64,000 nucleotides of DNA from Alphaproteobacteria bacterium HGW-Alphaproteobacteria-7. Lineage in GTDB: Bacteria; Pseudomonadota; Alphaproteobacteria; Sphingomonadales; Sphingomonadaceae. Location: contig PHEB01000002.1 in NCBI GenBank assembly GCA_002842735.1, positions 62,001 through 126,000 of the forward strand. Reading direction: 5' to 3'. The notes beneath the pieces were generated by a model, which was not told the DNA's origin, did not search any database, and worked only from the letters and a program-made list of their open reading frames with translations. The position numbers were made by a program, and so were the translations under genes. How positions within the stretch are numbered: the first letter of the stretch is position 1; each line of letters starts with the position of its first letter. Below, in pieces: positions 7,111 to 10,678 of this stretch.

Positions 7111-7655
7111 GGGCCGCCCGTCTCGCCGCTGCCGTCCTGCCGCTCCTCGGCCTCGGCGCCTTGTGGGCCACGAGCGAGCGCACTTACAACACGGGAACCG
7201 AGTGGCTCGTGCCGGTGCGGGGCTATGACCCACGCGATTACCTGCGCGGGCATTATGTCGAGTTCAGCTATGACTGGCCGGGAGAGGAAGACCTTAGCGA
7301 CATCGCATTAAGCGCGCTGTGTCTCGAAGGCGAAGCGCCGAATATTGCGCGCGTGCGATGGTTGCAGGAGGATGAGGCTTGCGATCATCCGCTGCGCGCC
7401 GATCTTTCGGGGGTCTATAGCTGGGATGCGCTGATGCGCGGACGCCTGTATGTCGGGCAAGACCGCGCGCTGGCGCTGGAGGAGGAACTGCGCAACCGTG
7501 ACCAGCGCGGGATCGTCACCATCCGCCAGCGCGAGGATGGCAGCTTCACGCCCATCGCCATCCGCTTCCGTCCGCTGACCCCCGCCGAACAGGCTGAACG
7601 CGATGCGCAGGATCAGCCGCCCACCATGCCGCCTGCGATCATGGACGCGCCCTAG
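7107..7655 (+). CDS. GDYXXLXY domain-containing protein
   Basis: ATGA overlap with DUF2157 gene; YDPRDYLRGHYVEFSYDW motif matches the GDYXXLXY family. Confidence 0.78.
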   Translation: MRAARLAAAVLPLLGLGALWATSERTYNTGTEWLVPVRGYDPRDYLRGHYVEFSYDWPGEEDLSDIALSALCLEGEAPNIARVRWLQEDEACDHPLRADLSGVYSWDALMRGRLYVGQDRALALEEELRNRDQRGIVTIRQREDGSFTPIAIRFRPLTPAEQAERDAQDQPPTMPPAIMDAP

Positions 7656-8596
7656 CGGAAATTCTCGCCCGTAGCGGCGATCCGCACCTTGAGCCCCGCC
7701 TGACAGATGTTCTGGATTTCAATCCCCGGATGGGCGTTGACCTCGATCACCAGCGGGCCATCATTGACGTCAAGCACGATATCCGCCCCGCAATAGCCCA
7801 GCCCCACGGCGGGGCCACAGCGTGAGGCGAGTTCCAGCACCCGCTCCCAGCCCGGAATCTCGAACCCGATCAGCAGCACGCCGGTATCGGGGTGATGGGT
7901 GATCGGCGTGCCTTTCACCACGGCGCGGGTGATCTTGCCGGTGACCATGTCGATCCCTGCGCCAATCGCGCGCTGATGGAGGTTGGCCTTGCCATCGGAT
8001 TCAAGCGTCGGCAGCCGCACCATCGCCATCAGTGGGGTGTAATGCAGGCTGATGACGCGCAGATCGGGCAGGCCTTCGGGCACAATGCTGGCCAGCGCCG
8101 GATCAGCGATGATCAGCGGTTCGATCAGCGCGGCATCCTCCGCTGCAGAATCGCCCGAAAAGCCGCCATCGACCACCTTCTGGATGTGATGCATCACCGC
8201 TTCTTCGGTCAGCGGCGCGCCCGATCCCTTGAACCAGGTATTGCCTTCGCGGCGCACCGCCAGAAGAATGCCGTCACCCTGCGATCCGCGTGCGGGCTTG
8301 ATCGCCCAGGCATCGGGCATATCGCGGCTCGGTTTGAATTCTGCCAGTTTCTGGTGGGTGTCGATCACCGCGACCGTGCCGGTGCAGGCGATCCCGGCAG
8401 CCTGCAGCGCCACCTTGGCCGCCACCTTGTCACGCGCACGCTCAATCGCGATGCGCGGATTATATTTCTGGATCAGCGCGTTGCGCATATTGATGCCGAG
8501 AATCTCGTCGATCCGGGCAAGCTGCGGGGGGCGCAGCTTGCTGAGCGCGTCATAATTCACCGTCTTTTTGCGTAATAGCCCGAACATATCAAACAT
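7652..8596 (-). CDS. RimK-like ATP-grasp protein (alpha-L-glutamate ligase-like family)
   Basis: Translation: NPRIAIERARDKVAAKVALQAAGI ... WAIKPARGSQGDGIL ... GYCGADIVLDVNDGPLVIEVNAHPGIEIQNICQAGL (ATP-grasp). Confidence 0.82.
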   Translation of the reverse strand: MFDMFGLLRKKTVNYDALSKLRPPQLARIDEILGINMRNALIQKYNPRIAIERARDKVAAKVALQAAGIACTGTVAVIDTHQKLAEFKPSRDMPDAWAIKPARGSQGDGILLAVRREGNTWFKGSGAPLTEEAVMHHIQKVVDGGFSGDSAAEDAALIEPLIIADPALASIVPEGLPDLRVISLHYTPLMAMVRLPTLESDGKANLHQRAIGAGIDMVTGKITRAVVKGTPITHHPDTGVLLIGFEIPGWERVLELASRCGPAVGLGYCGADIVLDVNDGPLVIEVNAHPGIEIQNICQAGLKVRIAATGENFR

Positions 8597-9638
8597 CCTC
8601 TGCCGTCCGGATGATCCAGGCGTTGTGAATCAGCGGCCGCCCGGATGCGTCAAGACGAGGCGCAAACTGCGCCTCCTTGTTGGGTTTGATCGGTTGCGGA
8701 ACCCGCCTTCGCCGCCCGGGGGTGAGATCCGCTGGCGAATCGATCACCCAAACGCCGTGGAGCGGAGGCGCGCGCTCCAGCGCTTCCTCCCGGCTGATCG
8801 GTTCAAGATCAAGTTCGAGCTGGTCGGGGTTGGCTTTTTGCCGCGCCTGCCGCCGCCGTTCGAGCCAGATCGGCGCAAACCGCCCGATTTCCGAAAGCCG
8901 CAAGCCGCGATAGCGGCCAAGCACCGCAATCGCGACACCTGTGAATGCCGGCATCAGCAGCGGCGACCATTCGATCAGCGCCAGCGCAAAATCCGACACC
9001 ATCACGAATTGGATGACCACCGCCAGAATGAAGGTGTTGAACGCCATCTTCGCCGCCGGTTTCGGCCCGTCCTTGTCCCATTGTTTGAACCAGCGTTCGA
9101 CAACCAGCGCGCAGACGATCACCGGGAAGGCATCGACCTGCAACTGGGTATCAAGGATCATCAGCAAGGCCACCAGCACCAGCACGATCAGCGAAATCAG
9201 CACGCCCAGAAACCCCACGCGCGTCATCCGCAATTTGAGCAAGGTGGGGGTGACAATCATGCCGGCCAGCACCGATGATCCCAGCACCACCGGCCCCATG
9301 ATCGGGCCGATTTGCAGGAACGCCAGCGCGATCAGCATCGGGGTGAACAGCCCGAACGCCTTCAACCCGATAAAGCTGCGCGCCAGCACCACCAGAAATG
9401 CGCCGAGCGGCAACACCATCAGCAGGTTCGATGGCTTCAGCCCCCAGATCGCCTGCGACGTCGCCACCCCTTCGAACGAAGATGGCAGGGCAAAGAAGGC
9501 CGAGGTATTGGCAAGGCCAAGCGCCACCAGCGCCGCGATGATCGCGCCGACAGCTATGCCTATGTAGAAAGGGCGCCTGACCTGCGGGGTTGCGCGCTTC
9601 CATATCTGGCTGAGTCTGGAGATCAGCTCAGAATGCAT
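8589..9638 (-). CDS. 7TM protein of the type usually fused to an inactive transglutaminase; here without the transglutaminase part
   Basis: Start taken at ATG 9638 (MHSELISRLSQIWKRATPQVRRPFYIG). TM helices plus ALVVERWFKQWDKDGPKPAAKMAFNTFILAVVIQF and GRYRGLRLSEIGRFAPIW. Overlaps neighbours by 8 and 11 bp. Confidence 0.72.
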   Translation of the reverse strand: MHSELISRLSQIWKRATPQVRRPFYIGIAVGAIIAALVALGLANTSAFFALPSSFEGVATSQAIWGLKPSNLLMVLPLGAFLVVLARSFIGLKAFGLFTPMLIALAFLQIGPIMGPVVLGSSVLAGMIVTPTLLKLRMTRVGFLGVLISLIVLVLVALLMILDTQLQVDAFPVIVCALVVERWFKQWDKDGPKPAAKMAFNTFILAVVIQFVMVSDFALALIEWSPLLMPAFTGVAIAVLGRYRGLRLSEIGRFAPIWLERRRQARQKANPDQLELDLEPISREEALERAPPLHGVWVIDSPADLTPGRRRRVPQPIKPNKEAQFAPRLDASGRPLIHNAWIIRTAEDV

Positions 9639-10542
9639 ATCCAACCGATAATGACAGCCGATAACCCTCGCGATCGCGGGCAGGTTCGTTGCTGCCGGCA
9701 AAGATGTATTTGGCCTCAGCCTCGATGCGCCACTTGCCCGGCCACCACAGCAGTTCGACTTCGGGGGCGACAAGGTTGTCGCGGCGCGGTTCACCATTAT
9801 CGGTGAGGCGGTTGTCGAACCGGGTGCGGATCACTTCGATGGCCGGGCGCACGCGCAGATCGGGGGTGATCGGGCGGGTATAGGCAACCCCGGCGGATTC
9901 GCGTTCAAAGCCGCGCCGCAGATCATCGGATTTGATCGATTCCGCGCGCAGATCAAACGCCAGATAGTGGTACCGCCCGAACCGGCGGCGATATTCCGCA
10001 TCAACGCGCGGGCCTTCGCCGGTGGTTTCGGCCAGCGCGCCATTGTCATATTCCCGCTCGCGCCAGGTGCCTTGCAGTCTGATGCGGTGTTTGCGATCGG
10101 ATTCCCACGTCAGCCGTGCAGAACCCTGCCATTCATCGGTGTCGTTGCTTTCCACCGAAACCATGTCATCGAAATGGCGGGCCTGAAGCTGGAGTTCCCA
10201 GTCCTTTTCGATATCGGTCTGGACGGTTGCGGTGAACCGGTCGCGGGCAATGTTGCGCCGCGCTTCGCCAAGCCGCAGCACCTCGATCCGGTCGGCTTCA
10301 AGCCGCAGCCGCACCCCGCGCTTTTCCAGCGCTACCCCCACTTGCCCGCGCACACTGATCGCTTCGCCATCAACGATCAGATCGCTGTCGCGGGTGGTGG
10401 TTTCGGCGCTGACCGTCTGCACTTCGATCCGCGCATCGGGTTCAAGCCGCCAGCCCCCATCTTGCGCGAAAGCAGGGTTGGCAACCAGCACAGCAAACAG
10501 CGCCGCCATCAGGGCGCTGAGCGCGCGCATGGAATGATTCAT
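9628..10542 (-). CDS. Predicted outer-membrane beta-barrel protein
   Basis: Signal peptide MRALSALMAALFAVLVANPAFAQ, alternating amphipathic strands, C-terminal aromatic strand RLSLSVGYAF. Confidence 0.65.
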   Translation of the reverse strand: MNHSMRALSALMAALFAVLVANPAFAQDGGWRLEPDARIEVQTVSAETTTRDSDLIVDGEAISVRGQVGVALEKRGVRLRLEADRIEVLRLGEARRNIARDRFTATVQTDIEKDWELQLQARHFDDMVSVESNDTDEWQGSARLTWESDRKHRIRLQGTWREREYDNGALAETTGEGPRVDAEYRRRFGRYHYLAFDLRAESIKSDDLRRGFERESAGVAYTRPITPDLRVRPAIEVIRTRFDNRLTDNGEPRRDNLVAPEVELLWWPGKWRIEAEAKYIFAGSNEPARDREGYRLSLSVGYAF

Positions 10543-10641
10543 TGAGTTAGCCCCCGTTGACTTACGTAGGGCTACGGCAAGGGTGTTTAGGAATTCCTAA
10601 CCACGGTCATAAACCATAGTCGGGATCGCCTCTTAGAACGC

Positions 10642-10678
10642 AAAAGGGGCGGAAGGCCGCTATCGGCCCTCCGCCCCT
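10642..10678 (-). terminator. Rho-independent terminator downstream of TonB-dependent receptor gene
   Basis: Inverted repeat aggggcggaaggccg-ctat-cggccctccgcccct with T-run on the minus strand. Confidence 0.75.

Follow-up and report, generated by a model that had tools for sequence, protein, structure and literature searches.

A barrel, a transglutaminase-less 7TM protein, and a RimK-related ligase encoded in a co-conserved gene trio related to RloB/RloC

Introduction

The closest studied relative of the genes described here is the rloABC operon of P. aeruginosa (PA1768-PA1767-PA1766), described in 2025, which encodes a secreted protease, a 7TM protein with an inactive transglutaminase domain, and an ATP-grasp protein (PMC12239564). 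RloA cleaves polyglutamate and needs runs of at least eight glutamates, and the defects caused by its loss are rescued by deleting either rloB or rloC (PMC12239564). Hypo-osmotic, biofilm, beta-lactam, and cell-shape phenotypes have been reported for the rlo genes (PMC12239564), which were also recovered in a suppressor screen of a hyper-biofilm colony type (PMC7314104). RimK, the ligase of the RimB-RimK pair, produces poly-alpha-glutamate (PMC11957791).

Here we analyse a trio of genes found in the window, the whole 64,000-nucleotide stretch of DNA under study, in which a 7TM protein and an ATP-grasp ligase are encoded together with an outer-membrane barrel. No earlier description of this barrel-7TM-ligase arrangement was found in the literature searched. 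Judged from sequence comparison, the trio is probably best explained as a reduced form of the RloB/RloC system that has a link to the outer membrane.

Results

The open reading frame list and the sequence place three minus-strand genes between positions 7652 and 10542, for a barrel, a 7TM protein, and a ligase, just as the original prediction had them (Table 1). The overlaps it had proposed between these genes, 11 bp and 8 bp, fared differently. The overlap of the barrel and 7TM genes is indeed 11 bp, with the ATG of the 7TM gene lying inside the terminal GlyTyrAlaPhe-stop codons of the barrel gene, and it is kept in 17 of the 22 loci compared, including two diverged cassettes; across relatives, the barrel ends in Gly-Tyr-x-Phe-stop codons at the overlap. 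In those of the 22 loci that lack it, the 7TM gene mostly starts just past the barrel stop. The 8-bp overlap between the 7TM gene and the ligase gene depends on use of the first ATG of the latter, and it is not firm because the next ATG (8587), one base after the 7TM stop, is common to more relatives. In four loci, the 7TM frame continues for approximately 90 to 240 bases beyond the start of ligase homology, in a different frame.

Table 1. Coordinates of the three genes and of the sequence elements upstream of them
Feature	Position	Strand	Remarks
RimK-related ATP-grasp ligase (RloC-like), 314 aa	7652..8596	-	311 aa if translation begins at 8587, the start common to more relatives
7TM_transglut protein, 349 aa	8589..9638	-	one N-terminal TM helix, short loop, PF14402 core, cytosolic tail of ~100 aa
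Outer-membrane beta-barrel, 304 aa	9628..10542	-	14 strands predicted after a signal peptide; Phe at the C-terminus
Short inverted repeat CGTAGCCCTACG in leader	10565..10576	-	read from the alignment
Near-palindrome GGTTAGGAATTCCTAAA	10586..10602	-	core kept across 16 aligned trio loci
Terminator-like stem with TTTT behind it, following the upstream TonB-receptor gene	10646..10677	-	read from the sequence

The expectation that a barrel with a signal peptide leads the operon was borne out by the AlphaFold model of the 9628-10542 product (mean pLDDT 70.5), which consists of a signal helix and 14 strands and ends in Phe. The signal peptide was judged by eye and from the N-terminal helix of the model, and the protein has the marks of an outer-membrane barrel in this peptide, its even strand number, and its C-terminal aromatic residue. 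No Pfam family scored over the cut-off. A fold search with the model returned OmpG and FadL as the best PDB matches, with AlgE and PgaA lower, and the likeness of the predicted fold to all of these is generic and porin-like. Diverged relatives of the barrel are also carried by twelve Erythrobacteraceae genomes that have no 7TM gene; there the barrel follows a response-regulator gene in at least six, and one that was scanned also has an Hpt-like domain. The barrel could therefore have another primary role, since its wider family also stands beside response regulators where neither 7TM protein nor ligase is encoded.

The protein encoded next was assigned to the 7TM_transglut family, as had been predicted, by a match to PF14402 (E=9.6e-27) that spans profile positions 58-247 of 248. 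Against the NCBIfam RloB model it scored 58.7 bits over the 7TM part only, where the cut-off is 900. Its structure model was poor, with a pLDDT of 47 that is too low to use. The cytosolic tail contains two W[VI]IxSxxD[LV]-like motifs (within 8589-8890), and most trio loci have one or two such motifs, one of them at the extreme C-terminus; they may serve as a docking peptide for the ligase. By eye, the 7TM core resembles PgsC/CapC (PF14102), a family that the Pfam scan did not match to it. In profile-profile comparisons with CapC, built on four CapC proteins only, some forward alignments scored slightly above the reversed controls, but not significantly, and given these scores and the Pfam result we do not claim the core as a PgsC/CapC homologue. 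Separately, four loci encode a protein of approximately 1,080 aa with two tandem CapC domains, which at least in L129 lies behind genes for a CHASE2 protein and a response regulator.

Two standard parts of the rlo operon had been expected to be missing, and both are. When aligned with full-length RloB-type proteins, the 7TM protein has only a short loop between its N-terminal helix and its core, at the position of the transglutaminase domain, leaving a clean gap. The 7TM protein has no match to PF14400, no transglutaminase half is encoded upstream, and a profile search of the genome, in which the control genomes were also without this family, found none elsewhere. As for the retropepsin-like protease, the only PF05618 gene of the genome is a cytosolic rimB without a signal peptide, located beside rimK on another contig. 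Of 16 classical genomes examined, 15 have a PF05618 gene adjoining the one for the 7TM protein; none of 12 trio genomes does, and there rimB is instead next to rimK. In a single case (L029), a trio is directly preceded by the rimB-rimK pair on the same strand. No TPR protein or other periplasmic bridge was seen at the trio loci.

The last gene encodes a RimK-related ATP-grasp ligase, an identification made in the original prediction and supported here by a PF14397 (ATPgrasp_ST) match with E=2.6e-61. The protein aligns over nearly its full length with TIGR02291 (alpha-L-glutamate ligase-like protein) at 262.4 bits, below the cut-off of 314.2, and its closest solved relatives are RimK-type ligases. 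The ATP-grasp lysines K57 and K100 and the metal residues D272, E285, and N287 are invariant, including in the RimK encoded by the same genome.

Upstream of the barrel gene, GGTTAGGAATTCCTAAA is followed by CGTA and the short inverted repeat, an order conserved in the 16 aligned loci. The GGTTAGGAATTCCTAAA element has no other exact match in the genome, and searches at the diverged cassettes and at the response-regulator-linked barrels did not find it there; it may act as a promoter or operator dedicated to the trio. The arms of CGTAGCCCTACG remain complementary with different letters in several relatives, as read from the alignment without statistics. The terminator-like stem further upstream, which does not appear in the list of a simple terminator scan, suggests by its position after the TonB-receptor gene that the trio forms its own transcription unit.

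To follow the trio among relatives, we surveyed 251 genomes of the order and counted every locus with a full-length transglutaminase-less PF14402 gene. The survey returned 14 such loci in 12 genomes, and in 14 of 14 the barrel gene lies directly upstream and the ligase gene directly downstream of the 7TM gene. The barrel is thus present in every complete locus, as the proposal of a conserved trio demanded, and the trio is a real unit that is co-conserved well beyond chance. Two genomes each carry a second cassette that is 34-49% identical and has different surroundings with the same gene order. The named relatives are Erythrobacter, Porphyrobacter, and Altererythrobacter, and in samples of the class and the phylum the transglutaminase-less 7TM proteins were seen only in the host's family. 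Presence is patchy within the genus, and one genome (G154) has a PF14402 fragment of approximately 65 aa with no barrel or ligase nearby, which is probably a remnant. Across all three genes dN/dS is 0.07-0.27, indicating purifying selection.

A second group of loci couples these functions to a barrel in another way. Four of them (L023, L024, L101, and L102) encode the transglutaminase, 7TM, and ATP-grasp parts in one polypeptide, and three (L103-L105) have the ligase as a separate gene; the fusion protein of L023 appears to be broken at its N-terminus. The transglutaminase domains have an intact Cys-His-Asp triad, and those that were scanned match PF01841. Where the contig is long enough, genes for a membrane-anchored TPR protein (~630-690 aa) and a barrel (~370-395 aa) follow, an arrangement seen behind transglutaminase-7TM-ligase genes in two other lineages. 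A profile of the trio barrel weakly finds three of these TPR-type barrels, in alphaproteobacterial loci, with E-values from 6e-6 to 4e-5 in one search and of 2.8e-4 in another. In the ligase tree, the trio and TPR-type ligases group together, apart from those of the classical rlo operons, with support of 87/98, a value that suggests a barrel-linked clade and is not decisive. The 7TM tree neither recovers nor rejects that clade (p-AU 0.22).

Discussion

From the parts, their conserved catalytic residues, their co-conservation, and the selection acting on them, we infer a path that would carry a product from the cytosol to the outer membrane, including its probable substrate, the contact between its proteins, the direction of movement, and the part played by the barrel. 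In the first step, the cytosolic RloC-like ligase would use ATP to attach an acidic amino acid, most likely glutamate, to an acceptor or to build it into a short peptide; a glutamate-like product is our best guess by analogy with RimK chemistry and RloA specificity. The 7TM protein in the inner membrane would bind the ligase from the cytosolic side and pass or present the product to the periplasm, and the two proteins probably touch, since four genomes encode a ligase fused to the 7TM domain. The 14-stranded barrel would then provide the outer-membrane step, as an exit or docking site, a role suggested by its place on the same transcript and by the TPR and barrel genes of the sister operons. 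RloA and the periplasmic transglutaminase domain would be dispensable in such a system, as its product would either exit the periplasm or no longer be trimmed there. The occurrence of barrel-plus-TPR operons in other lineages strengthens the path. Points against it are that the 7TM tree does not recover the barrel-linked clade, that the wider barrel family also stands beside a response regulator where the pair is missing, and that the trio loci show no TPR protein or other periplasmic bridge. For the model as a whole we estimate a probability of about 0.45.

The path had originally been framed, with no mention of rloABC, as peptide tailoring or export, which is narrower than the evidence, as modification of an envelope component could also fit. 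In that alternative, the ligase and the 7TM protein would add an amino acid to an envelope glycan, lipid, or protein, the barrel would be the target or a sensor, and no polymer would be exported. Pfam describes the ligase family as associated with sugar transfer, response regulators accompany a related barrel, and rlo mutants of P. aeruginosa show cell-shape and beta-lactam phenotypes, all of which would suit such a role. However, the TPR-plus-barrel operons elsewhere resemble outer-membrane export sets, and the need of RloA for runs of glutamates also speaks against it, so that we consider envelope modification a serious contender that is nevertheless somewhat unlikely. A bystander barrel, held by shared transcription beside a working 7TM-ligase pair and having its own role, for example in small-molecule uptake, would be consistent with the generic porin-like fold, for which OmpG and FadL were the best matches, and with the barrel relatives that occur without the pair. 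It seems quite improbable given that order and adjacency are the same in 14 of 14 loci, that the 11-bp overlap is kept even in the two diverged cassettes, and that barrels also follow ligase genes in other lineages. The loss of two standard parts, the patchy presence in the genus, and the remnant-like G154 fragment might suggest that the trio is what is left of a classical rlo operon in decay. This reading is hardly credible and was rejected on the purifying selection on all three genes (dN/dS 0.07-0.27), with invariant catalytic residues and a conserved leader element besides.

Together with its TPR-plus-barrel relatives, the trio could represent Gram-negative machines that make a non-ribosomal acidic peptide and carry it through the outer membrane in parallel to exopolysaccharide secretion, a generalization that we regard as speculative and unlikely as it stands. 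In Pseudomonas, the rloBC genes have been linked with osmotic survival, with biofilm, and with tolerance of antibiotics, and a barrel encoded with the 7TM-ligase pair points to a step that crosses the envelope; in the marine bacteria of the genus Erythrobacter, this linkage suggests a possible transfer of the product to the cell surface. With only three genes and no redundant proteases, the trio is a simple system in which to look for the RloB/RloC product. Loci with an intact transglutaminase triad, with an inactive transglutaminase and a protease, and with neither form a natural series with which the role of the periplasmic parts can be probed.

Among the known systems, rloABC resembles the trio in that a 7TM_transglut membrane protein precedes an ATP-grasp ligase, both from the Pfam families of their counterparts in the trio. 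In contrast to rloABC, which has an inactive transglutaminase domain and the secreted RloA, the trio has neither and is led by a barrel; because these two defining features, the domain and an adjacent RloA, are missing, the trio should not be filed as rloABC. The transglutaminase-7TM-ATP-grasp operons share with it the coupling of a barrel to a 7TM protein and a ligase, whereas they keep a Cys-His-Asp transglutaminase and a large TPR protein, four of them with the 7TM-ligase fusion. RimK has the catalytic residues of the trio ligase, to which it is approximately 25% identical, but RimB-RimK is a cytosolic ribosome-modifying pair that is encoded separately in the same genome. Poly-gamma-glutamate synthesis by PgsB/CapB and PgsC/CapC is built on the same idea of an amino-acid ligase with a membrane protein, although PgsC/CapC has no significant profile match to the 7TM core and the trio ligase is of the ATP-grasp type. 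The polysaccharide exporters PgaA and AlgE have a barrel fold like that of the trio, whose sister operons pair a TPR protein with a barrel, but the fold likeness is generic, with a TM of about 0.4-0.5, and the trio is without a glycosyltransferase.
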